Below, in pieces: positions 38,570 through 50,455 of a stretch of 64,000 nt of DNA. The stretch is taken from the NCBI RefSeq assembly GCF_015265475.1, contig NZ_CP054493.1:744001-808000 (forward strand). The letters run 5' to 3'. How positions within the stretch are numbered: the stretch's first letter is position 1; the number at the start of each line of letters is the position of its first letter. The notes under the pieces were generated by a model, which was not told the DNA's origin, did no database searches, and saw only the letters and a program-made list of their open reading frames with translations. Made by a program: the position numbers and the translations under genes. This DNA is from Candidatus Sulfurimonas marisnigri (GTDB taxonomy: Bacteria > Campylobacterota > Campylobacteria > Campylobacterales > Sulfurimonadaceae).

Positions 38570-39871
38570 TCAATATTGAGGTAAAATACAAGAAAGTTTT
38601 GAGTTTAGGTTTAATGAGGCAATAGTTCCATCTATTCCATCGGTTCTATTTTTTATGCTGATTTTTGCTCCAAGGGCGTCTGCTGCACTTTTAGCTAGAA
38701 ATAGTCCTAGTCCAACCCCTTGTTTATTTCCTTGTCTCGCAAAGGGTGCATATAGATCAACACTCTCATCTACGCCACACCCCTCGTCAATTACTTCAAT
38801 AAGCAATCCATAGTTATTTAACGAACTTTGTAGTTTTACTTTGCCTTCCGTACGTGTAAACTTGAGCGCATTTTGTAAAAAATTTTGAACTATTTGATTA
38901 AGCAAACCTACTTGAAGTATTGCAGTAAAACCATTAGGCATAAAATTCATCTCTAGTAATTTACCTTCATTTTCAGCAAGTAGCCTAAAGTCATCAGCTT
39001 TTTGAGAGAGAACAGCTATAACATCTACTTCCTGAGGTTTTTCTAGTTGCATACCTTCTTGTCTGCCTATATTGAGTATATTAGAAACTATGTTGTTCAT
39101 TTCATCTATAGTTTTATTTGTTACTTTCAGGGCTTCTATATACTCCTCCGGGGAGCGTTTTTTTAATAGAGTTACTTGATTTTTTAATTTAATAACTGCA
39201 AGCGGAGTCTTTAGCTCGTGAGCAGTACCAATAAAAAGTTCTTTTTGATATTTGACAAAATTTTGAATCCTTAAAATAAGATGATTTATTGTAGCACCTA
39301 GGGATTCAAACTCTTCAGGTAGATTCTCGGTTACTATTGGCCTTATGAGATGCTCATTCATGTTTGAGAGTTTATTACTTAGTGCTTTTACAGGACTAAC
39401 TAACATTTTTGAAAGGGTGATTGCGTATACTACAGCAAGTAAAAAACCAGCAATATTTATTATAAAAATATAATGAAGTATTTTATCTAATAACTCCCTT
39501 GTTTCTGTAATATTGTTTGTTATTTTCAGATAACTTAAGTCGTCTAAATTAAAAGGGTAAATAAGCGTAAGATAGGTTTTTCCTCTCTTGCTTGTTTGAT
39601 ATAAATCTTCTTCAATATATGATTTTTTAAGCTGTACAATTTCAACTTCTAACCCTAGGTATAACTCTGGTACTAAAGGGGTTACGGAGTTATGTAATGA
39701 TTTATTATGCGCAATATTTTTTGCATGTTTAACAATCTCTTGATATTTCTCTTCTAGAATAGAACTTTCTATGTACAAGTATAAAAAAGATGAAAATATA
39801 AGTATGAGAGATGCCAGTGAGAAGATTAATTTAATTAGAAAAACCCGTCTAATACTTTTTTTAGAAAACAT
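38570..39871 (-). CDS. Sensor histidine kinase, likely former operon partner of hsrA
   Basis: A 433-residue kinase. Membrane helices near residues 10-30 and 135-160 bracket a roughly 100-residue periplasmic sensor, followed by HAMP, an H-box (GTAHELKTPLAVIKLKNQV), N box (IVQNFLQNALKFT), G1 (DEGCGV) and G2 (GVGLGLFLAK). AGG upstream of ATG 39871. The response regulator hsrA now ends at 49781, with the 9.8 kb integrated element between. Removing the element would leave about 145 bases between hsrA and this gene in the same orientation, so it was probably its operon mate. The kinase gene itself is intact. Confidence 0.9.
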   Translation of the reverse strand: MFSKKSIRRVFLIKLIFSLASLILIFSSFLYLYIESSILEEKYQEIVKHAKNIAHNKSLHNSVTPLVPELYLGLEVEIVQLKKSYIEEDLYQTSKRGKTYLTLIYPFNLDDLSYLKITNNITETRELLDKILHYIFIINIAGFLLAVVYAITLSKMLVSPVKALSNKLSNMNEHLIRPIVTENLPEEFESLGATINHLILRIQNFVKYQKELFIGTAHELKTPLAVIKLKNQVTLLKKRSPEEYIEALKVTNKTIDEMNNIVSNILNIGRQEGMQLEKPQEVDVIAVLSQKADDFRLLAENEGKLLEMNFMPNGFTAILQVGLLNQIVQNFLQNALKFTRTEGKVKLQSSLNNYGLLIEVIDEGCGVDESVDLYAPFARQGNKQGVGLGLFLAKSAADALGAKISIKNRTDGIDGTIASLNLNSKLSCILPQY

Positions 39872-39977: not shown

Positions 39978-40003
39978 GAGAAAAGGGGTAAGTTCCCTTT
40001 CTC
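39978..40003 (-). other. Hairpin in the original hsrA-kinase spacer
   Basis: GAGAAAAGGGG and CCCTTTCTC pair with one bulged A around a 7-base loop. It lies just outside attL on the chromosomal side, so before insertion it followed the hsrA stop closely. No T-run follows on the reverse strand; it may attenuate rather than end transcription into the kinase gene. Confidence 0.45.
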
Positions 40004-40017
40004 GTTAATATTAATTG

Positions 40018-40031
40018 ATTTCTTTTGGGAA
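40018..40031. repeat. attL core repeat
   Basis: ATTTCTTTTGGGAA, identical to 49788-49801. On the reverse strand the flanking chromosome would finish hsrA as FPKEIN-stop, which shows that this is the displaced original hsrA end. Confidence 0.85.
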
Positions 40032-40090
40032 ACAAAAGAAGTAAACGACATAAGAGTACGAATATACAGTAGTTTAAATGGTATTAAAAA

Positions 40091-40116
40091 TAAGTTATAC
40101 ATAAAGTTATACATTC
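40091..40116. repeat. Left integrase arm-type repeats
   Basis: Two AAGTTATACAT units, 12 bases apart (40092 and 40104). The whole 26 bases recur exactly at 49645-49670, near the other end. Position 60 bases inside attL fits arm-binding sites of a tyrosine integrase. Confidence 0.7.
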
Positions 40117-40179
40117 TAAAATATTTAATATTTTTACTAAACACTCTTTAAACTGCCTACTTTAAGTACTTTACTTAGT

Positions 40180-40731
40180 TTATCTGTTAAACTCATTATC
40201 AAACCATTTTCTAAGTTCATTAGCATTATACTGTATTTTACACCCATCTTTAGAAGATTTTTCTAATCTATTGTGTACTCTATTTCTTCTATTAGTTTGC
40301 CAACTTTTTGAGTACCCATAAAGTAAAGTAAACTCATCCGCTGTTATAAACTCTTTAGTACTTATTACATTAACTTTAACTTCATCTAAGTAAGGTACTT
40401 TAATATTGTCATATAATTCATATACATTCAAGGCATACTTTAGTAACTCGTTGTATGTCTTTGTGTTTTGTTTATACAGTTCTATTGCTACTGTATTTCC
40501 ATCTAGTAGTACTTGTATATCATTTTCTTTATTATCACTATCAGTTACTACAATAGTTACTAAGTCTTTGTAAAACTCTTTGTCTTCTTTACTTAGTTCA
40601 GTTCTGTTAATATTCTTATTATTAGTACTTGTATAAACTTTATTAAGTATATCTTTTTGTTTCCTTGATAAGTCTTTTATTGTAGTAACTAAATCATCAA
40701 GTATTTTCTTTATTTGTTTGTCTTTATTCAT
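40180..40731 (-). CDS. Element protein with C-terminal helix-turn-helix (excisionase-like)
   Basis: A 183-residue protein starting at MNKDKQIKK (an upstream ATG at 40755 would add eight residues). The N-terminal part is helical and charged. The end (ITADEFTLLYGYSKSWQTNR, then YNANELRKWFDNEF) looks like the winged helix-turn-helix of AlpA/excisionase proteins, where the first part contacts DNA and the last strand/helix is conserved. It is the last gene before attL. A role in excision or control of the element is inferred. An AGTACT word lies just upstream of the coding start. Confidence 0.55.
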   Translation of the reverse strand: MNKDKQIKKILDDLVTTIKDLSRKQKDILNKVYTSTNNKNINRTELSKEDKEFYKDLVTIVVTDSDNKENDIQVLLDGNTVAIELYKQNTKTYNELLKYALNVYELYDNIKVPYLDEVKVNVISTKEFITADEFTLLYGYSKSWQTNRRNRVHNRLEKSSKDGCKIQYNANELRKWFDNEFNR

Positions 40732-40823
40732 TCTAAAATTATAACTAAAAATCAAGTACTAAATAAAAATTGTAAAGTAAAAAATTCAAGTAAAAATACA
40801 ACTATAAACAGTTATAAACACCC

Positions 40824-40887
40824 CTACAACACTTTAAACCTCTTAGTAAACATAATGTATTAAGTAAGTTGTAAAAGTGTCTTGTAG
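40824..40887. repeat. Imperfect inverted repeat between rep and the HTH gene
   Basis: CTACAACACTTT (40824-40835) pairs with AAAGTGTCTTGTAG (40874-40887) with two unpaired bases, around a 38-base loop. The 180-base gap could hold the end signal of rep or an operator for the HTH gene. Confidence 0.4.
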
Positions 40888-40935
40888 GTCTTCTGTCAAC
40901 TTAACTTAAACTTAAATAACATTAACTATATCTGT

Positions 40936-41087
40936 TTACAAAAAATCATCTATTTTTGTGTTTGTTAACTTTTCTTCAAATAATTTAAAATTCACAAACT
41001 TTTCTAACTTTAGTAATTCATCTTTTACATTACTAATATCTAAAGTGTACATTATTCCGTCACTTACACTTGTACCCTTATTAATCA
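40936..41087 (-). pseudogene. Rep-like protein, C-terminal fragment cut off by IS21
   Basis: The reverse frame gives LINKGTSVSDGIMYTLDISN and on to KIDDFL-stop, about 50 residues. It continues the frame of the fragment at 43677-44424 exactly when the IS and one copy of the 6-bp duplication are removed: both fragments then read through QKRLINKG. Alone it has no start codon of its own. It would be a non-functional end of a 299-residue protein. Confidence 0.85.
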
Positions 41088-41273
41088 ATCTTTTGCTTAC
41101 GCCACTCCCATTCGGACACCCAGTCACTTTTCACTCGGACACTCAGTCGGAAAGTATTCGGACAGTTAGCCGTTTTTAGTTCGGACAATTTGTCTAATTT
41201 AGCGGCTGGAAATCATAAGTAGAAAATTCTCTAATAATTTAATTACACTTCATAAAAAAAATGAGGTGTGAAG

Positions 41274-42809
41274 ATGGAGAGACTTTCTATGCGAAAAATT
41301 AAAGATATATTGAAGTTACGATTTATAACTGAGATATCCTATAGGCAAATAAGTAGAGCTGTAAATGTACCAAGTTCAACCGTATCAGACTATTGTAAAA
41401 GGTTTGAAATAAGTAAATGTACAATAGATGAACTTTTAGAGATAGACGAAGATAAGATATATCAGATTCTATTTCCTGAAAAACTGAAAATTGATAAAAC
41501 TACTAAACGACCACTTCCAAACTTCGAATATATTCACAAAGAGATAGCAAAAAAAGGTATTACATTTGAGCTGCTATGGATGAAATATAAAGAGCAGCAT
41601 CCAGATGGATATGCACTGAGTAGATTTAAAGAACTCTATTACAGCTTCAAGAATAAAATAAGCCCCACAATGAGACAGACCTATATACCAGGACATCAAA
41701 TGTTTGTAGACTATAGCGGTCTTAGTGTTGCATATAGAGATGCTATAACTGGTGAAATACATAAAGCACAAATATTTGTCGCTGTGCTTGGTGGAAGTGG
41801 ATGTGCATTTGTACATGCAACACCATCTCAAAAACAAGAGTATTTTATAAAATCACACATCTTAGCCTATGAGTTTTATGGTGGTGCACCTAAAATAAAT
41901 GTACCTGATAATCTAAAGAGTGCCATTATCTCAAATAATAAGAATGGAATTGTTGTAAATGAGAGCTACGCAGAGATGTGTCGCCATTACAATTGCGGGG
42001 TTGAACCAGCACGTCCAAAAAAACCTCAAGACAAAGGAATAGTCGAACAAGCTGTGCAAGGGATTCAGAGATGGATATTAGCTGTATTTAGACATAGGAC
42101 ATTTTTTAGTGTTGATGAGATAAATCAGGCTATTGCACCATTGCTGGATCAATACAATTCTAAAAAGAGCAGACACTTAGGAGCAAGTAGATATGAACTC
42201 TTTGAAGAAGAAAAACTCCAGCTACAGCCATTACCGGCAAATAGATTTATATACAAAGAGATAAAAATTGCAACAGTTGATTTATCATACCATGTCAAAT
42301 TATTGGATTGCTACTACTCGGTACCATTTAAATACTTGAGTGAAAAAGTAGAAATAAAATACTCTACAGCCTTAGTAGAGATTTATCACAAAAGTAGGCT
42401 GTTGGCGACACATCCAAGGATACACAGAGTAAATGCAAGGTCTACACTTCATGAACATATGCCTAAAAACCATCAGTATCAAAATGAAAAAATGAATCCA
42501 GCAAGACTACTAAATTGGACAGTATCCATAGGTGAAAACACAAGAGCCTTTACTCAGAAAAAGCTTGATGGTTCAGAGTATCCTGCGAATGCATATACTA
42601 GTATCATCGCTATATTAAATAAAGCGAAAGTTTACGGAAGAATTGAGCTTGATATGGCACTTGCATACGCACTCTCAATAAATGCGACAAGTGTAAAATC
42701 GATAGAGTCAATACTATCTAAAAAGCTCTATGTGCAGATAGCAAACAATGTAACAAGTACAGTAATTAATAATCATGAAAATATTCGTGGTAAAGATTAC
42801 TACAAATAA
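41274..42809 (+). CDS. istA: IS21 transposase IstA
   Basis: A 511-residue transposase with an N-terminal helix-turn-helix (ISYRQISRAVNVPSSTVSDYCK) and an rve-type DDE domain: MFVDYSGLSV (first Asp), VPDNLKSAI (second Asp) and PKKPQDKGIVEQAVQ (final Glu). A C-terminal beta domain follows (YYSVPFKYLSEKVEIKY). It needs IstB for target capture. ATG 41274 has GAGG seven bases upstream; the in-frame GTG at 41268 is too close to that site. istB starts 17 bases downstream. Confidence 0.93.
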   Translation: MERLSMRKIKDILKLRFITEISYRQISRAVNVPSSTVSDYCKRFEISKCTIDELLEIDEDKIYQILFPEKLKIDKTTKRPLPNFEYIHKEIAKKGITFELLWMKYKEQHPDGYALSRFKELYYSFKNKISPTMRQTYIPGHQMFVDYSGLSVAYRDAITGEIHKAQIFVAVLGGSGCAFVHATPSQKQEYFIKSHILAYEFYGGAPKINVPDNLKSAIISNNKNGIVVNESYAEMCRHYNCGVEPARPKKPQDKGIVEQAVQGIQRWILAVFRHRTFFSVDEINQAIAPLLDQYNSKKSRHLGASRYELFEEEKLQLQPLPANRFIYKEIKIATVDLSYHVKLLDCYYSVPFKYLSEKVEIKYSTALVEIYHKSRLLATHPRIHRVNARSTLHEHMPKNHQYQNEKMNPARLLNWTVSIGENTRAFTQKKLDGSEYPANAYTSIIAILNKAKVYGRIELDMALAYALSINATSVKSIESILSKKLYVQIANNVTSTVINNHENIRGKDYYK

Positions 42810-42826
42810 AAAAGGAAATCGAATAA

Positions 42827-43573
42827 ATGAATCAAACTACAGTAATAAATAAACTTAATGATTTAGGATATCAGGGCTTAAAAAATGCATATCTAAGACA
42901 GATGGAGGATACAAACTATCATCAACTTAGCTTTGAGGAGAGAATCTATGGTCTCTTAGATGCACAAGATATTTTTTTACAAAACAAAAGAATAGCTACA
43001 AATATAAAAGCCTCAAAAATCAAAGACAAACAAGCAGCAATAGAGAATATAGATTATAACTCTAGCAGAAACATTGACAGACAGGCTTTCCAATCGCTTA
43101 TTAGCATGGATTTTATTCGTAATCATCAAAATATTATCATCACTGGGAAAACTGGAACTGGTAAGAGCTTTACAGCCCAAGCACTTGCAAACAGAGCTCT
43201 GTTAGATGGATTTAAAGTTTATTATGTTCGGGTACCTACACTGCTAGAAGAGATTAAAATATCAAGAGCAGATGGGACGTATACAAATTTACTAAAAAGA
43301 TATTCAAGGTTTCAGCTTCTTATACTTGATGACTTTGGAGTATCGCAAATATCTACAGATGATGTTACAAACCTATTTGAGATTATTGAAGATAGGACAG
43401 AGATAAACTCGACTATTATAACTTCACAATTACCTGTTTCTCAGTGGTATGACTATCTCAATAATGATACTGTAGCGGATGCTATGTTGGATCGGGTAGT
43501 TCACTCATCTCATCGTGTTGAAATAAAGGGTGAATCTATGAGAAAATTGAAGTCAAAAATAAATCCAAATTAA
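42827..43573 (+). CDS. istB: IS21 ATP-binding helper IstB
   Basis: A 248-residue AAA+ ATPase of the DnaC/IstB type. Walker A ITGKTGTGKSFTAQALANRA and Walker B LLILDDFGV are intact, followed by sensor residues (TIITSQLPVSQWYD) and an arginine finger region (DAMLDRVVHSSHRVEIKGES). IstB assembles on DNA and recruits the transposase to the target. The gene lies 17 bases after istA with AAAGGAAA before the ATG, and is complete. Confidence 0.93.
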   Translation: MNQTTVINKLNDLGYQGLKNAYLRQMEDTNYHQLSFEERIYGLLDAQDIFLQNKRIATNIKASKIKDKQAAIENIDYNSSRNIDRQAFQSLISMDFIRNHQNIIITGKTGTGKSFTAQALANRALLDGFKVYYVRVPTLLEEIKISRADGTYTNLLKRYSRFQLLILDDFGVSQISTDDVTNLFEIIEDRTEINSTIITSQLPVSQWYDYLNNDTVADAMLDRVVHSSHRVEIKGESMRKLKSKINPN

Positions 43574-43676
43574 AACTCATTCGGACACTTGTGTTATAAT
43601 TTTACACTTAGAGATTTTTTACTTATGCATGTCCGAATGATTTCCGGCTAGCTGTACGAGTGAAGTGGCTGGAGCA

Positions 43677-44424
43677 ATCTTTTTTGGATGTTACATTTAT
43701 TTCTAGTACCGAAAAGTTTTACATGGTACTTATTTAATTCATTACTTAATTCTTTAATACTATGTATTTTCTTTAGTAGTCTAGGCAGTAATTTAACTTC
43801 AAATCTAGTAATGTCCTTATCTATATTATTATTAAGTACTAGTTCTTTATGTGTTTTATCACACAAGTAGGCACTCATCATCATATTACTTCTATCTAAA
43901 GTTTTTACACCATTCTTTACTTTATTTTTTATAGTTTCAATATATTGTGTCTTAGTACTAATATCAGTAATAAGTTTATCTATCCTATTTCCTCTTACTT
44001 TATCTTTCTGTACTATTACTTTATCATTTGTAGTATTAATATCAGTACAAATATCTATCTGTCTAATATCCCACTTACTTAAATTACATTTTATACTTAA
44101 GTACTCTAGTAAACTAAATATGTGTTTAGTTCTATTATTGTCTAGGTCAGTATTGTAAGTTTTTAATCCATTAAAATTAATAATATTACTTACTAAACCA
44201 TCTTTATTAATTAAAGTCCTGTAATCAAATATTACTTGATTATTCTCTTTTACTAAGTACTTGTTCATACTGTTGTTTGTTTCAATCTTGTGTTTAGTTA
44301 ATGTGTTGTTTTGTATGTAGGTTTCCATCTGTGTATGGAGTGTATTTGTAGTATAGTTAACAAAACTAATACTATCAATTGTAGTTTGTAAATTGTTCAT
44401 CCTTGTACCTCTATTTGTTTTCAC
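43677..44424 (-). pseudogene. Rep_trans/phage-Rep-like replication protein, N-terminal fragment interrupted by IS21
   Basis: Reading leftward from ATG 44424 (or 44400) gives about 249 residues before the IS boundary; a further few IS-derived codons end at 43648. The motifs WDIRQIDICTDI, SAYLCDKTHKEL and ITRFEVKLLPRL follow the order (D-x-D/T strand, Y-DK, R-fE-v-L) of replication initiation proteins of small plasmids and filamentous phages. Restored, the protein has 299 residues. It probably started replication at repeats just upstream. Interrupted by IS21, it should no longer work. The exact family is inferred from motif pattern. Confidence 0.7.
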
Positions 44425-44507
44425 AAATATTTATACAAATCATTAACAATTATTCAAAAATAGATAAAAAGTACTGAAAAACAGTTAACCTTTTATGGAG
44501 AAAAACA

Positions 44508-44632
44508 TAGGGTATACAGTACTTATGGTGTATATTAATATGTACTATAACAGTATTAATACACTAAAATCAAAAAGTATATATACCCTCTCAAAAACAA
44601 AAAATCCAAAAAAGTATATATACCCTCTTGTA
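44508..44632. repeat. Repeated GGGTATA elements upstream of rep (possible origin)
   Basis: AAAAGTATATATACCCTCT occurs twice (44573-44591 and about 44612-44630), 40 bases apart. A related inverted copy, AGGGTATACAGTACT, starts near 44510. They lie in the 230-base gap before rep, where iterons or a nick site would be expected. Confidence 0.5.
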
Positions 44633-44655
44633 AGTCTTCTATTTTCCCTATTATT

Positions 44656-45012
44656 TTATTTTCTAGTTCTTTTCGCTGGTAGTAAATCTTCTTTAGCATT
44701 TTTCTTAAATAAACTTCTTAACTGTTCAGCAGTTACAGCATACTCTTTTGCAGTACTTTTCTTACCTTTAATAGTTATCGGTTTATCTGTATATGCTTCT
44801 TTAACACTTCCAAATTCAACAAGTATACCACTAGCAATATATCTTAATTTTGACATAGTAAAGTTACCTTTATTATCTTCAGCATAATTAAATAGTACTT
44901 CTTTCATAGCATTAAACTCTTCACTATACTTAGCAACTCTAGTACTTACTGTATTATTTGCCTTATCAATTATCTTATCTACATCAATCTTAGTTATATC
45001 AAATGTTGCCAT
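44656..45012 (-). CDS. Element protein of unknown function
   Basis: A 118-residue soluble protein starting MATFDITKIDVDKIIDKANN (an upstream ATG at 45039 is less likely). It is basic at the C-terminus (DLLPAKRTRK) and mostly helical. No family recognised. It lies between rep and the serine recombinase, with the putative origin repeats on its left, so a replication accessory role is possible. CCTTTTG-rich sequence before the ATG gives AAAGGAAAC as ribosome site. Codons AGT ACT (Ser-Thr) occur twice. Confidence 0.6.
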   Translation of the reverse strand: MATFDITKIDVDKIIDKANNTVSTRVAKYSEEFNAMKEVLFNYAEDNKGNFTMSKLRYIASGILVEFGSVKEAYTDKPITIKGKKSTAKEYAVTAEQLRSLFKKNAKEDLLPAKRTRK

Positions 45013-45234
45013 TATGTTTCCTTTTGTTTTAATTCGCAAAAGTATATCATATCTATAGTTTATTTAGTAAGTAATAGTGTAGTTTATTTGTTAGTTGTAT
45101 AAATAAGTGTAGTAAGTTTAAACAATAAGTTTATCTCTCATTTACTTATTTGTTTACTCTTATACCTATTACAGTAGGCTCGAAAGTTTTCATAGTAGAC
45201 ACCTCTACTAACTCCTTGTAGTAGTATAGTTTAA

Positions 45235-45849
45235 CTATACTACTTTTAAATTCCTTGTTTTAATATATTTTCCTAAACTTTGTACACTACCAATATTAAT
45301 ATATTCGTGTATTCTTTTATTAGTAACTCCTAAATTAATTAACTCAGTTATCTTGTCTTTATGTTCATCAAATATACTTTTAACTTGTTGTCCTTTTTGT
45401 CTACCTAATTTAGTTCCATTTGCTTTTACTCGTGCTAGTCCTTGTTTAGTTCTCTCACTAATAAAACTTCTTTCAAGTTCTGCTACTGCTGTTAACATTG
45501 TTAACATCATTGTATTCATAGCATTAGTATTATTACTATCAATAACTAAATTTTCTTTTATAATAATAAGTTTAATACCTTTGTTTTTAATGTCTTCAAT
45601 AATTTGTAAAGTTTCAATAGTACTTCTTCCAAGTCTATCTAAAGCATAAACAATTAAAGTATCATTCTTTTGTAATTTTTCTAGTGTAGTATCTATTTGT
45701 CTGTCTTTTCTATTATTTCTAGTACTTGTAGTTACTTCAATAATATCATCTATCTTTATTTTATTATTATAAGTATATTCTAGTATTGTATGTTTTTGTG
45801 TGTCAGTAGTTTGTTTATCTGTGCTTACTCTTGTGTAACCTATTATCAT
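45235..45849 (-). CDS. Serine recombinase (resolvase/invertase family)
   Basis: A 204-residue small serine recombinase: IIGYTRVSTDKQTTDTQ holds the catalytic Ser; LIVYALDRLGRSTIETLQII and the E-helix AVAELERSFISERTKQGLARVKANGTKLGR are intact. A C-terminal helix-turn-helix follows (ELINLGVTNKRIHEYI). It may resolve element multimers or invert a segment. It stands apart from its neighbours: 117 bases from the Wzz-like gene and 222 from the next. The element thus carries both recombinase classes. Confidence 0.9.
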   Translation of the reverse strand: MIIGYTRVSTDKQTTDTQKHTILEYTYNNKIKIDDIIEVTTSTRNNRKDRQIDTTLEKLQKNDTLIVYALDRLGRSTIETLQIIEDIKNKGIKLIIIKENLVIDSNNTNAMNTMMLTMLTAVAELERSFISERTKQGLARVKANGTKLGRQKGQQVKSIFDEHKDKITELINLGVTNKRIHEYINIGSVQSLGKYIKTRNLKVV

Positions 45850-45966
45850 GTTCTTTCCTAGTAATAAACTTTAGTAGTATTATTATCACTAGAAGAACAT
45901 GAAAAGAAACTTTAAACTATACCTATATCGTTTATTTTTTCAGTACTTTAGTTGTTCGTTTGTAGT

Positions 45967-46560
45967 TTACTTAGTACTCTCATCTTCATCTCTTGCTTTA
46001 GCGATAAAGTCTAATAAAAAAACTAAAAATATAGAAAGCACAAGTCCTGTTATAAAACTAACAACAACTATTAACTTTTTCTTTGGTTTGTTTATCGCTT
46101 CATTACCTATCGTAATGTTACCAATTTGTTTAGTCATAATATACTTCTCAAAAAGTTTTGCTTTTGATTTATGTCTTTCTAAAACATATACTACATATTT
46201 TTCTAAATCTCTCTTTATTACTTCTTTATTAACATTAGTAGTTGATAAAGACATTAACCCATTAGATCTTTTTGGAAGTGTTACTAATAGTGAATATTGT
46301 TTTTCAAGTATGTGTTTTAAGTTATTAGGATTATCTAAATAAGTTAAGTTTGTTGTATTACTTTTAACTTCTCCAATTTCTAGCATTACATTACCACTAT
46401 AAACAGGTATTGGATTTTTCATATATACATATACAATTGCTCCTAGTGTAACCAAAGTTGTAACTATAAAAATAACAATTTTCCTATTTACTATAATCTT
46501 CCATAACTCTCTCAAGTCTATTTCATCTTCTTCTATATGTCTTACTTGTCCATTATTCAT
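45967..46560 (-). CDS. Short Wzz-like chain-length determinant protein
   Basis: A 197-residue protein with the Wzz layout: DEIDLRELWKIIVNRKIVIF and a first membrane helix (residues about 27-50), a periplasmic part of only about 110 residues, then a Pro/Gly helix (KKLIVVVSFITGLVLSIFLVFLLDFIAKA). Wzz proteins set O-antigen or capsule length and usually have about 320 residues. The KPKKKLI preceding the last helix matches the family's P-K-x-P-k-k. It overlaps the 34-codon gene upstream by ATGA. An altered or interfering Wzz on a mobile element suggests modification of the cell surface. Confidence 0.75.
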   Translation of the reverse strand: MNNGQVRHIEEDEIDLRELWKIIVNRKIVIFIVTTLVTLGAIVYVYMKNPIPVYSGNVMLEIGEVKSNTTNLTYLDNPNNLKHILEKQYSLLVTLPKRSNGLMSLSTTNVNKEVIKRDLEKYVVYVLERHKSKAKLFEKYIMTKQIGNITIGNEAINKPKKKLIVVVSFITGLVLSIFLVFLLDFIAKARDEDESTK

Positions 46561-46661
46561 ACTAATTCCTTAAAGAAGTCAATACTATTTAAAAATACCA
46601 TAAACCCAACTAATATAATAAACATTATCAATGACGCTATTCCAAAAAGTTTTTTTCTCAT
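46557..46661 (-). CDS. 34-residue single-span membrane peptide, coupled to the Wzz-like gene
   Basis: Translation gives MRKKLFGIASLIMFIILVGF and 14 more residues. It has a basic start, one membrane helix, and no cleavage site. AAAGGAAAAGC upstream provides a ribosome site. Its TGA overlaps the Wzz-like ATG (ATGA), which makes it likely to be a real gene in the same operon. No family is recognised; it may assist or regulate the membrane protein that follows. Confidence 0.6.
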   Translation of the reverse strand: MRKKLFGIASLIMFIILVGFMVFLNSIDFFKELV

Positions 46662-46698
46662 GCTTTTCCTTTATTAATTCTGTTATTGTATCAAAATA

Positions 46699-47340
46699 TT
46701 AATACAAATGAGTATTTCGCACACTTACTAAACTGTTACCCTCATTTAAAGTTGTAATACCTCTTAGTATTAAATCAATAGTATATCTATCCGCACCACT
46801 TTCAACTAGTGCTTCTCCAAAAGTACTACCTTTTTTTATTCTCTCTTTTAAAAAATTAAAGTTATGTTTACTCTTCATGTACTGTTTAACTGCTAGTTCT
46901 TCTGTGCCTGTCATTACATTACTTTTAACAGTTGTATCTTCATTAAGTACTTTATTGTTATTTAACTTTTCTTTTTGTCCTTTAATACTATTTCTTTTAA
47001 TATACTCTTCTGCTAATGTATTATGCTTAAGTCTTTCTTCTTTCTCGTTAAGTGTTCTGTTAAGTTTACTTATTGTTTCTTCTTGTTTTTGTATTAAGTC
47101 TTCATTTTCTATAATAGTGCCTACTTGCTCTCCGTGTTCATGTTTGTATGTATTATTAAAGTACTCATCTTAAATATGGTTGTATTCTCCACTTTCAAGC
47201 ATTACAGTAACAAAGTTTTTTACCTTTTCAGTTGTAATAGTGCCATCAGTAATACTCTTAATAAAATCACTTTCACTTTCGTTAAGTCCTGTTCCTCTAG
47301 TTCTTCTTCTATTTGTTGTATTTCTATTTGTTTTGTTCAT
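46699..47340 (-). pseudogene. Unknown element gene with an in-frame TAA (213 codons)
   Basis: From ATG 47340 the frame reads MNKTNRNTTNRRRTRGTGLN to SGEYNHI, hits TAA at 47172-47170 (codon 57), then continues for 157 codons to the end at 46699. The later part is a Lys/Glu-rich coiled coil (LIQKQEETISKLNRTLNEKE) and a C-terminal helical domain. No ATG, GTG or TTG restart with a good site lies soon after the stop; the first ATG is codon 143. One base change would restore it. Function unknown. It lies 2 bases after the 103-residue gene. Confidence 0.65.
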
Positions 47341-47342
47341 AA

Positions 47343-47654
47343 TTATTCCCCTAGTAAATTAATATCTTTGTAATTGTTTTTTTTAATATCTTCTAAAAAC
47401 ATATAATACTGCCCTATTGTTACCCACATATGAAGACTTAATTGTCTAATAGTATAAGACTTACTTTGTTGTACTAATACCATTAACTCTGTTAAGTTTT
47501 CTTCTAATTCTGTCAAAGGTTTATCTTCAATGCTTATTGCCAACATTGCTTCCATTAAACCTCTAATACTCTCTGTGTTACTAGTAGTATAATATTCTAA
47601 AGGTTTTTCTAATATCTTATTTACTCTCTTAATAAGTTGTTCTTTACTCATCAT
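47343..47654 (-). CDS. Unknown element protein, 103 residues
   Basis: A helical soluble protein (LIKRVNKILEKPLEYYTTSN; LTELEENLTELMVLVQQSKS). No cysteines, no membrane segment. A start three bases later (47651) is also possible. It overlaps the gene upstream by 11 bases and is two bases from the next, so it is part of the tight seven-gene leftward operon of the element. No family recognised; composition and helix pattern would fit a structural or regulatory partner protein. Confidence 0.55.
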   Translation of the reverse strand: MMSKEQLIKRVNKILEKPLEYYTTSNTESIRGLMEAMLAISIEDKPLTELEENLTELMVLVQQSKSYTIRQLSLHMWVTIGQYYMFLEDIKKNNYKDINLLGE

Positions 47655-48003
47655 CTTGTACCCCTTTAGTTTGGAACTTTGCTAATATTTCTTGTGTATC
47701 AGCAATAATCATTTTATTGTCCTGTTGTACTTCTTTTCTAATAATTTCTTGTTTAGTTACAGGCATTTCGTACTCTAATAGTTTAAGTGCTATTTTTACT
47801 AATAGTTCTTTTTCACTTATTGTATTACTTTCTTTCACTAGTAGTTGCAGTACTACTTCTTTTAATATTTCTTTTGGTTTAATTCCTGTTAAATCGTTAT
47901 TAAAAAATGTTTCGTACTTTTCTTTAATTATTGTAGTTTTATTCTTAACACCTTTACGACTTTTTATTGTTGTTGGTTGATTATCACTTGTAAATAATGA
48001 CAT
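47644..48003 (-). CDS. Unknown element protein, 119 residues
   Basis: The chain opens MSLFTSDNQPTTIKSRKGVK, a basic disordered stretch, and continues with long helices (LLVKESNTISEKELLVKIAL). The last residues are acidic (VQDDE). No known domain recognised. The gene starts two bases after the 86-residue gene and overlaps the 103-residue gene by 11 bases. The basic start could bind nucleic acid. The tight spacing says that this and its neighbours act together, but the process is unknown. Confidence 0.55.
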   Translation of the reverse strand: MSLFTSDNQPTTIKSRKGVKNKTTIIKEKYETFFNNDLTGIKPKEILKEVVLQLLVKESNTISEKELLVKIALKLLEYEMPVTKQEIIRKEVQQDNKMIIADTQEILAKFQTKGVQDDE

Positions 48004-48005
48004 TG

Positions 48006-48266
48006 TTAAAGTTCCTTTTGTATTACAGTAAAAAAAGTTTTATAGTTATGTGTTCCATAATCTTCTTCTAGTACATTAGCAATTGCTTTAGCAAAAGTAC
48101 TTATGTCTAAACTATCGTCTACCTTTTCTATACTAGTACTAATTAGTTTTTGTAGTTTAGTTGCCTTAGTAGTATCAATCTTAACAATGTAGTTATCTTT
48201 TTCATTTATATTTTGTAGTCTTTCTTCCATTGCTTTATAACTATCCATATCTTTATACGAAACCAT
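48006..48266 (-). CDS. Unknown element protein, 86 residues
   Basis: A small acidic-to-neutral protein (MEERLQNINEKDNYIVKIDT; FAKAIANVLEEDYGTHNYKT), probably alpha/beta. Its ATG overlaps the TAA of the 52-residue gene (TAATG), so translation is coupled. No family recognised. Several AGTACT words fall within its Ser-Thr codons. Confidence 0.5.
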   Translation of the reverse strand: MVSYKDMDSYKAMEERLQNINEKDNYIVKIDTTKATKLQKLISTSIEKVDDSLDISTFAKAIANVLEEDYGTHNYKTFFTVIQKEL

Positions 48267-48424
48267 TACTTTAGTTCCTTAGCAATCTTCTTTTCTAAGT
48301 TAAGTTTTTTAATAATATTTAGTAATTCATTAAGTAATGTTTCATTACCTTTTGAGTCTTTCTTAAGTAATTTTGTGTGTGTTGGTTTAAGTAGTAAACT
48401 TTGTAGTGTTTGTTCTGTTGTCAT
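48266..48424 (-). CDS. Unknown element protein, 52 residues
   Basis: Translation from ATG 48424 gives MTTEQTLQSLLLKPTHTKLL and a helical Lys/Leu/Glu-rich end. A good GGAG lies about seven bases upstream, and its stop overlaps the ATG of the next gene. It is the first gene of the seven-gene operon; the promoter should be in 48425-48526. No family recognised. The strong ribosome site and coupling are the main support. Confidence 0.55.
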   Translation of the reverse strand: MTTEQTLQSLLLKPTHTKLLKKDSKGNETLLNELLNIIKKLNLEKKIAKELK

Positions 48425-48526
48425 GTGTAACTCCTATATTTTATAAGAGTATTTATAAGAGTAGTAAAGTAACGGCAAGTTTCCGTTATTTTTTTTCGTT
48501 ACTTGAGTGGATTAAGTCTATTTTAA

Positions 48527-49618
48527 CTACTTAATTATATCCGAATAGTATTCGTATAATTCTTGTATATCTTCATTGTTATAAGTTAAGTAAACACTTT
48601 TCATTTCATTACTCGTATGTGACAGTACTACTTCATTTACAAAGTCAGTATTAAATTTTGTACATAATGATATAAAAAACTTTCTATTAGTGTGTGAACT
48701 TACTTTGTAGTCTGTACCTAATTTTATTTTTTGTATCATTACTTTATAGTTTCTAATATAAGTATCTTTATGACTAGGAAATATTTTTTCATCTAAGTCT
48801 TTGTTATGTATTAATAACTCTATTACAACTTCGGGTACAGGATATTGGTATAGGTGAGTATTGTCTTTTCTTGTTTTAGTTGTTTCCGCCCTTACTTTTA
48901 TTCGTTTAGTTTCAAAGTTAATATCAGTATATTTTAACTGTGTTAACTCTCCTATTCGACGACCAGTTAATAACGAAAGTAAAAATAGTACTTCAGTGTT
49001 AACACCACCATGTGATTGAGTAGTAATACCTTGATACACTTTTTTAACTATTTCTTTTAATTCATCTTGTGTTGAATTTAAAAATGTTTTCTCTCTTTTG
49101 TAGTTAGTTTTTACAAGTTTTAATGGATTTCTATCTATATTTTGTAGTTCAAACTCTCTTTTAAATATAGGCATTAATAAGTTTTTAACTCCTTCTTTAG
49201 TTGAGTTTCCTATTCCTTTACTTTCTATATTATCCATTATTTCTTCTAAGTCTGTTACTCTAATTTTACTTATTTTTATGTGTCCTATTTTATCGTGTAC
49301 CCATTTATTGTATTGTAAAAGTGTTGTAGTTTTGTAAGGTTCATTTAGTTTTTTATTATATTTGTAATATAACTTATCGAGTATTTCGCCTTTTATGTAA
49401 AGAGGGTCTTTATTTTTTACTATTTCTATTTGTATCTCTTGTAGTCTATCGTGTGCTTGTTTTTCACTAGTACATCCATACTAATTAGTCATATTAACCC
49501 AACCAATATTTTTACCTTTTGTTATCCTCGCAAAGTAGTCTATACCTCTGTATGCTGTTTGATAAGTGTATATACTAGTATACTTCTTACTCTTTACTTT
49601 TTTATTCTTTAGTGCCAT
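48527..49618 (-). pseudogene. int: Tyrosine integrase of the element with an in-frame amber codon
   Basis: Full frame: 363 residues from ATG 49618 (MALKNKKVKSKKYTSIYTYQ) to 48527. A TAG at 49483-49481 (codon 46) interrupts it; a restart is only available at ATG 49237 (codon 128), which would drop the arm-binding and part of the core-binding domain. Catalytic parts are present: LLTGRRIGELTQLKYTDI (Arg I), SSHTNRKFFISL (H-x-x-R) and LSHTSNEMKSVYLTY (His/Trp position and Tyr). It directs insertion into hsrA. Adjacent arm repeats at 49635-49670 fit. The gene is inactive unless the stop is read through. Confidence 0.85.
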
Positions 49619-49634
49619 TTTATCCCTTTGTTAA

Positions 49635-49670
49635 AAGTTATACATAAGTTATACATAAAGTTATACATTC
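49635..49670. repeat. Right integrase arm-type repeats
   Basis: Three AAGTTATACAT units start at 49635, 49646 and 49658. Bases 49645-49670 are identical to 40091-40116 near the left end. They lie between the integrase start and attR. Confidence 0.7.
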
Positions 49671-49734
49671 CATAGTGTAACAGAATAGGATTAATAAGTA
49701 AATATTTAAGGTTAAATTAATTTTTAAGTGAAGT

Positions 49735-49756
49735 AAACCCCAAGTTTATGGGGTTT
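49735..49756 (-). terminator. Element-borne hairpin after the hsrA stop
   Basis: AAACCCC (49735-49741) pairs with GGGGTTT (49750-49756) around an 8-base loop, 24 bases after the current hsrA stop. It is element DNA. No U-run follows, so its strength is uncertain, but it could reduce readthrough from hsrA into the integrase gene. Confidence 0.5.
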
Positions 49757-49780
49757 GGTGTGGATTGAATTAAGTAAAGA

Positions 49781-50455
49781 TTAACTAATTTCTTTTGGGA
49801 AGCAGAAACGGTATCCACGACGACGAACAGTTTCAATTGTTGTGATTCCTAATGGTTTGTCCATTTTTTGACGAATTTGGTTGATAGCAACTTCAATAAC
49901 ATTTGGAGTAACAAGCTCAGGCTCTTCCCAAATCGCGTCTAGTAGTTGTTCTTTAGAAACAATTTGATCACGGTGACGAGCTAAGTGAGTTAGAACTTCA
50001 AAAGGTTTACCTTTAAGCTCTATATCTTGCTCTTTGTAAGTTATTTTTTCCTCTTCAGGGTTGATAACTAAATCGTCTATTGAAATAATATTACTTCCTC
50101 CAAAACGAAGACGAGCTTCAATACGTGCAATTAGAACATCGAAGTCAAATGGTTTTCTGATATAGTCATCAGCACCACTTCTTAGAGCTTCAATCTCACT
50201 CTCGTTGTCATCTCTAGCAGATAAAACTATTACAGTAGTTTTTGGAGTCTTAATTTTTATGTCACCTATAATATCTACAGAGTTTCCATCAGGAAGCATC
50301 CAGTCCATTAATACTAGGTCGTAGTTACGGATATCTAAGTAATATTCACCGTCTTTAAGTGTTTCAACAACATCGCTTTGGTAGCCAAATTCTTTTAATC
50401 CTTCAGCAAGCATTTTGTTTAATGTAACTTCATCTTCTATAATAAGAATGCGCAT
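49781..50455 (-). CDS. hsrA: OmpR-type response regulator HsrA, 3' end rebuilt by the element
   Basis: A 224-residue regulator: receiver domain with acidic pocket E7-D8, phospho-acceptor D51 (LVLMDWMLP), T/S and K (VIVLSARDD, RKPF), then a winged-helix DNA-binding domain (TPNVIEVAINQIRQKMDK, TVRRRGYRF). H. pylori HsrA, an essential homeostatic regulator, lacks the acceptor Asp; this one has it, which fits a kinase partner. The attR core covers codons for FPKE near the end. The element supplies the last two codons and stop (I-S-stop instead of the ancestral I-N-stop), so protein length is unchanged. Confidence 0.9.
   Translation of the reverse strand: MRILIIEDEVTLNKMLAEGLKEFGYQSDVVETLKDGEYYLDIRNYDLVLMDWMLPDGNSVDIIGDIKIKTPKTTVIVLSARDDNESEIEALRSGADDYIRKPFDFDVLIARIEARLRFGGSNIISIDDLVINPEEEKITYKEQDIELKGKPFEVLTHLARHRDQIVSKEQLLDAIWEEPELVTPNVIEVAINQIRQKMDKPLGITTIETVRRRGYRFCFPKEIS
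49788..49801. repeat. attR core repeat inside hsrA
   Basis: ATTTCTTTTGGGAA, identical to 40018-40031. On the hsrA strand it reads through the Phe-Pro-Lys-Glu-Ile codons just before the stop. Confidence 0.85.

Follow-up and report, generated by a model that had tools for sequence, protein, structure and literature searches.

Why does the gene of the response regulator HsrA (CosR) lie almost 10 kb away from its histidine kinase gene in Candidatus Sulfurimonas marisnigri? The stretch of DNA analyzed here, called the window, comprises 64,000 nucleotides (positions 744,001 to 808,000 of contig NZ_CP054493.1), and all coordinates given below are those of the window. The hsrA gene occupies positions 49781 to 50455 of the minus strand. 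The CosS-like histidine kinase gene, which comes next after hsrA in empty sites, is found at positions 38570 to 39871 of the same strand. The locus as a whole is best explained, and we hold this with high confidence, by a 9.77-kb tyrosine-integrase island at the 3' end of hsrA, which is now probably immobile. The island has well defined ends, a matching empty site, repeats at both ends and a layout common to its relatives. The roles assigned to its arm sites, its hairpin and its excisionase-like gene are inferred.

The empty site

The genus sample consisted of 135 genomes, including the source genome (G000). Matches to hsrA are present in 132 of them and matches to the kinase in 130. The distance between the two genes was counted from the match end. 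For comparison with the kinase places, 127 hsrA places were used and five genomes with only weak hsrA matches were dropped. Excluded from the distance count, besides these five, were three genomes without an hsrA match, three with the two genes on different contigs and one without a kinase; for G038 and G095, each of which has a further kinase place, that second place was also left outside the comparison. Both genes are on one contig in 123 genomes. The gap between them is 43 to 1637 bases in 122 of these and 9930 bases in the source genome alone. The gap of 711 bases in G027 is the product of a partial kinase match, and the largest one, 1637 bases in G001, contains one unrelated gene that by eye encodes a receiver-GGDEF protein. 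An earlier note, made from the letters of the window, expected the kinase gene close to hsrA wherever the element is missing. This is the case in 122/122 of the other one-contig genomes, with a distance of at most 1.7 kb, and in none are the two genes far apart.

The closest relative, G004, has 95% identity across the hsrA query. The joined flanks of the element align to this genome across the junction over all 192 bases, with 159 identities in 200 columns and a single core. The predicted empty site is thus found in G004, where the flanks join over one core copy.

Ends of the element

The 14-bp core, ATTTCTTTTGGGAA, has two copies in the window, neither of which is assigned a strand. The left copy, attL, spans positions 40019 to 40032, and the right copy, attR, spans positions 49788 to 49801 within the rebuilt end of hsrA. 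The 14-bp repeat proposed at both ends is therefore real, but its left start had been given one base early, at 40018. Past attL the minus strand encodes FPKEIN-stop, the displaced original end of hsrA, and the present terminus of the gene reads FPKEIS-stop; both had been read in the same way in the earlier note. Within a context of 34 bases the left and right core sites are identical at 28 positions, and the next best match to this context on either strand of the window is 21/34.

Each end of the element also contains tandem arm-type sites on the plus strand, to which the integrase would bind. The 64 kb contain five copies of the sequence AAGTTATACAT, always in one orientation, at positions 40092, 40104, 49635, 49646 and 49658, compared to 0.2 occurrences expected in the window by a zero-order model. 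Two sites form the left array (40092 to 40114) and three form the right array (49635 to 49668), and within the window such tandem sites are confined to the two ends of the element. Exact repeats shared by the two ends reach 27 bases, compared to 14 in 20 shuffles. These copies bear out the 26-bp repeats of the same orientation that had been described near both ends.

The tyrosine integrase gene, int, is positioned at the hsrA side of the element, as had been stated before. It spans positions 48527 to 49618 of the minus strand, and its start is about 170 bp from the core. The product matches Pfam family PF00589 with an E value of 1.1e-12, which is the sole PF00589 match in the element.

In the proposed mechanism, the element's own tyrosine integrase would have inserted the 9.77-kb island at the 3' end of hsrA, between the 14-bp core copies. 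Binding of the integrase probably takes place at the 11-bp arm sites, which stand in tandem on either side, with strand exchange within the core. The end of the element beside hsrA would restore the last codons and the stop, whereupon an element-borne hairpin probably acts as the hsrA terminator. The far end of the island would carry an excisionase-like gene.

Some points weigh against this interpretation. No second carrier of the element was found among the genomes searched. The excisionase-like gene has no family match in library scans, and the element's hairpin, a putative terminator, has a short T-run. The core is no longer than chance exact repeats and is not significant by itself, because shuffled ends give repeats of up to 14 bases here. 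The case for insertion rests on the place of the core at the edge of the empty-site homology and on the arm repeats.

The target gene and its kinase

The rebuilt hsrA gene is intact, with its last codon or codons and its stop supplied by the element, and its product of 224 residues is equal in length to those of relatives. The Ser for Asn change noted at its terminus is indeed present in the rebuilt end, but it belongs to natural variation, since Ser is the last residue in 4 of 29 other loci compared. The identity of HsrA is confirmed by its match to the solved regulator structures 2hqr and 8uvx, which we take to be HP1043 and CosR, respectively. Asp51 is conserved in all 30 HsrA loci; the aligned solved chains lack it. 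With this residue conserved and a kinase adjoining, the regulator in Sulfurimonas looks like a standard phosphorylated type, unlike the orphan of Helicobacter pylori. The target site thereby resembles the CosR/CosS pair described in other Campylobacterota, an OmpR-type regulator with D51 and an adjoining sensor kinase (PMC3938529), which differs from the element itself in being a two-component system and not mobile. H. pylori HsrA and Campylobacter jejuni CosR are termed essential in PMC9449129, and by analogy hsrA may be essential in the present organism.

A terminator-like hairpin contributed by the element (49735 to 49756, no strand assigned) lies 24 bases past the rebuilt hsrA stop, and the 60 bases past this stop have a structure z-score of -3.2. 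The original hairpin downstream of hsrA (39978 to 40003, no strand assigned; z -3.6) has been moved to the kinase side. When the 60 bases past the hsrA stop were scored against 100 shuffles per locus, z was below -2 in 27 of 30 loci, namely 26 of the 29 relatives and the window, where the structure is the element's own hairpin.

These data bear on the possibility that the insertion is a regulatory switch that uncouples hsrA from the kinase. The constant proximity of the two genes in the other one-contig genomes and the invariant Asp51 are consistent with such a switch. The separation is real in position, as the earlier note held, but 26 of 29 relatives also have a hairpin past the hsrA stop, so that functional uncoupling does not follow from it. 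Furthermore, the upstream side of hsrA and the approximately 145 bases before the kinase are untouched. A switch is consequently considered highly improbable, and insertion of an island that leaves its target gene whole is preferred.

Gene content and probable decay

The genes of the element follow each other on the minus strand in the order int, four small genes, a broken gene, a Wzz-like gene, a serine resolvase gene, a small gene, a replication-initiator-like gene and the excisionase-like gene. The four small genes (47343-47654, 47644-48003, 48006-48266 and 48266-48424) have no assigned function, and neither has the broken gene (46699 to 47340), which is interrupted by a TAA at 47170-47172, nor the single small gene (44656 to 45012). 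The serine resolvase/invertase gene spans positions 45235 to 45849. The cargo includes a short Wzz-like chain-length determinant (45967 to 46560), which might alter the length of surface polysaccharide.

The excisionase-like gene (40180 to 40731) is named for its position at the far end and for weak C-terminal similarity. Its product has 20-28% identity to the products of far-end genes in three relatives, one of which scores with HTH_17, and its predicted model is poor.

The replication-initiator-like gene has been split by an insertion of the IS21 family into a 5' piece (43684 to 44400, minus strand) and a 3' piece (40936 to 41085, minus strand). The insertion (41095 to 43674, plus strand) contains istA (41268-42809) and istB (42827-43573), is flanked by the 9-bp repeat CAATCTTTT at 41086-41094 and 43675-43683, and is the only copy found in the genome. 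Searches of Pfam, PHROGs, NCBIfam, phages, plasmids and IMG/VR gave nothing convincing for the split protein. Its model has a mean predicted local distance difference test score (pLDDT) of 49.8. Foldseek gave no hit for this model at E<=0.001; a RepDE chain ranked 21st with an E value of 0.059. The name is thus a guess, given the poor model and the lack of a Foldseek match. The protein is matched in 2 of 397 class genomes, including the source genome. Distant relatives, 27-29% identical, are found at 1.77 Mb of the same genome and in G387, a genome of the same order, and these two are likewise without a family match in library scans. The relative in the same genome (L077:2465-3361) is part of a larger island and by eye lies near DUF932-, Rad52- and gp157-like genes; the gene set in G387 (L078) is similar to that of the L077 island.

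This copy of the element looks decayed. The int gene has an in-frame TAG at 49481-49483, a second gene has a TAA and a third is split by the insertion sequence. With int, the gene interrupted by the TAA and the replication-initiator-like gene each disrupted, the element has probably lost the ability to move on its own, and excised circles are probably not to be expected. It could nevertheless still be mobile if translation of int gets past the TAG, or the TAG stems from an error in sequencing, and the element can do without its other broken genes. Past the TAG there are 317 open codons that include the catalytic domain, and the element has been seen in a single genome, both of which would agree with mobility. 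On the other hand, three separate disruptions have accumulated within one small element. Recoding of the stop codon was considered and rejected, because the TAG and TAA interrupt frames and TAG otherwise serves both int and the resolvase gene as their regular stop. Continued mobility is therefore regarded as quite unlikely, and the decayed, immobile island remains the preferred description.

Comparison with known elements

The element has the features by which genomic islands are recognized: an integrase at one end, core repeats, a single core when the site is empty and a rebuilt target. Family scans found no structural, packaging or lysis genes, apart from weak matches of the IS21 ATPase to families of this sort, with the two smallest frames scanned against PHROGs only. 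Relaxase and transfer genes had no match among the element genes scanned.

Could the element be what is left of a prophage or phage satellite, and not an element of the plasmid-like or defence-island type? An integrase, an excisionase-like gene and AT-rich small genes would suit such an origin, and the HE-PICI satellites also have a doubled attP motif and an integrase clade with related targets (PMC10111431). The scans just described argue against it. Moreover, the integrase has no relative in IMG/VR by the patterns used, and eight phage records match it at 26-28% identity. An origin from a phage or satellite appears unlikely, and the element is described here as an island.

Islands are known at protein genes; for example, SGI1 occupies the 3' end of trmE, and others are found at the 5' end of dusA (PMC8409611, PMC4482086). 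They share with the present island the integrase-driven insertion at the end of a protein gene and a variable cargo; they differ in target, and no mobilization gene was found here. The HE-PICI satellites are similar in that one integrase clade repeatedly chooses gene targets and in their doubled attP motif of about 11-12 bases per unit. However, they are enterobacterial phage satellites that reside inside prophage late genes (PMC10111431). The GInts can insert at gene ends and have a small helper gene and variable cargo, but they possess three integrases in a ginABCD operon, compared to one here (PMC5385486). The combination of three integrases and ginD that defines them is missing, since the element gives a single PF00589 match.

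Elements of this kind are already known. In one island database, 56.6% of the islands are in tRNA/tmRNA genes or intergenic and many are in protein genes (PMC12884075). No report of hsrA as an integration target was found among the matches listed in the literature searched, where subscription journals are little covered. With hsrA/cosR, a gene whose orthologs are essential in H. pylori and C. jejuni joins the integration targets, and the locus shows an element using such a gene while keeping it whole.

Related integrases and their islands

The earlier note regarded an att site in such a protein gene as unusual. Matches to the integrase at E<=1e-8 are present in 47 of the 135 genus genomes (46 besides the source), the best of the others being 35% identical. 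A profile search gave 31 of 135 genomes at 1e-25, and 14 matches scoring over 250 bits, spread over 13 genomes that include the source. By coordinates compared by eye, none of the 13 other strong matches shares a contig with hsrA at a distance of 0.5 Mb or less, where draft contig breaks could hide cases and G037 has no good hsrA match. The integrases of G096, G033, G009 and G115 are 27-31% identical to that of the window over about 317 residues. No closer relative was found in IMG/VR, GTDB genomes (single-sequence patterns), phage and plasmid records or the 397 class genomes. A GTDB alignment search yielded 12 integrase loci, the best with 33% identity.

Eleven integrase loci were inspected and the element side was compared for eight; L047, L048 and L051 were omitted because contig ends are near. 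Six of the eight related loci followed (G096, G033, G028, G065, G009 and G067) have the end of a protein gene in duplicate, so that the claim of an unusual site fails for the relatives of this integrase. In G096 and G033 the target is the second gene past luxS, with a 14-base core. G028 and G065 have the same luxS-linked target, recognized through a translated MWGNGL-stop remnant. The target in G009 is the GTP-cyclohydrolase II gene (17-base core), and in G067 it is the 5' end of a dinB-like gene of the IMS family (19-base core), which in sites of this type may be expressed from the element end. The near end of G031 (L102) reads like that of G067 (L092/L093). G115 looks targeted to a gene for leucine transfer RNA (tRNA-Leu): a tRNA-Leu-like fragment lies beside int and shares a 13-mer with a tRNA-Leu gene on the far side, a match that is within chance by shuffles. 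The ffh gene was rejected as the G115 target on account of this fragment and 13-mer.

Five further loci were studied at their near ends only. L127, an equivalent locus in which LuxS is called by Pfam, has its near end at the luxS-linked gene. L123 and L124 have by eye tRNA-like fragments beside int, where ARAGORN calls no complete tRNA, and their arm repeats closely resemble those in the window. The near end of L130 adjoins a mutS-like fragment without a Pfam match, and that of L081, from another genus, follows a spore-photoproduct-lyase-like gene. Among 29 tyrosine-recombinase loci, nine from the source genome and 20 from relatives, a tRNA was detected at one (L036, source genome), with the limit that ARAGORN misses truncated tRNA remnants such as those seen by eye beside int in G115, L123 and L124.

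The islands of G096, G033, G028, G065, G009, G067 and G115 resemble that of the window in having a homologous integrase with int beside the target gene, and several share the tandem arm repeats and a far-end gene with a winged helix-turn-helix (wHTH)-like product. Tandem repeats of about 11-12 bases are found, partly by eye, at both ends in G096, G033, G028 and G067. The small far-end genes of G096, G033 and G009 align and have a wHTH-like C-terminus; that of G096 matches HTH_17 at the cut-off and that of G033 has a weak excisionase-family match. Islands with both ends mapped are about 8.5-31 kb long. They differ from the hsrA island in target and, in the three whose cargo was looked at, in carrying DNA methylases and type III-like restriction genes.

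The length of the cores was compared with chance repeats from 20 shuffles, the five longest of which are 12-16 bases depending on locus. By this measure alone G067 is well supported and G009 barely. G096 and G033 are supported mainly via the arm repeats that adjoin the core, of 24 and 15 bases, respectively.

A tree of 16 integrases unites the four luxS-linked ones with a support of 96/98; in a tree of 19, G065 falls out of this group. The hsrA integrase is on one side of a 100/100 branch in the 19-integrase tree, together with the G009, G058, tRNA and G117/G023 rows, and the same branch has 83/83 in a smaller set without L123 and L124. The trees were midpoint-rooted.

These islands make up a family in Sulfurimonas and its relatives, most members of which, where both ends are mapped, lie at the end of a protein gene. 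The data tip slightly in favor of a clade of integrases that has been repeatedly re-aimed, to tRNA-Leu, luxS-linked, ribA-like, dinB-like start, hsrA and probably spore-photoproduct-lyase-like targets, while one plan was kept: arm repeats, an excisionase-like gene at the far end, and a terminal piece whose stop and hairpin keep the target working. Several further observations weigh against the proposed account of the island and its family. The integrase is only 27-36% identical to its nearest relatives and has no resolved sister in the tree. Judged by length, the core matches of 14 bases (window, G096, G033) and 17 bases (G009) equal chance or exceed it only a little, and the core of G033 competes with a 16-base match at another place in the element. 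For G028 and G065 the evidence for the far end is the translated remnant, without a long exact repeat. Arm repeats were looked for at both ends of G009 and none are visible, and the far end of G051 was looked for and not found. A hairpin between -175 and -100 of int, present at 8 of 18 near ends and lacking a chance control, was not used as evidence for a family trait.

Since the ends of related islands have been mapped to several different genes, target switching by integrases becomes comparable within one bacterial group. If the clade has indeed been re-aimed, it is a natural series for how a tyrosine integrase changes its target.

Base composition of the element

The DNA of the element, taken as positions 40038-41084 and 43700-49780, differs from shuffled sequence in its content of short palindromes. 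AGTACT occurs 26 times, compared to 7.7 +- 2.6 in dinucleotide shuffles and to expectations of 11.9 and 16.1 in order-2 and order-3 models, respectively. Its copies are in all phases and also between genes. AGCT and ACGT are absent, with 16.6 and 11.7 copies expected in shuffles, and the rest of the window shows no avoidance of AGCT. This bias may reflect an origin from a donor whose restriction systems were different.

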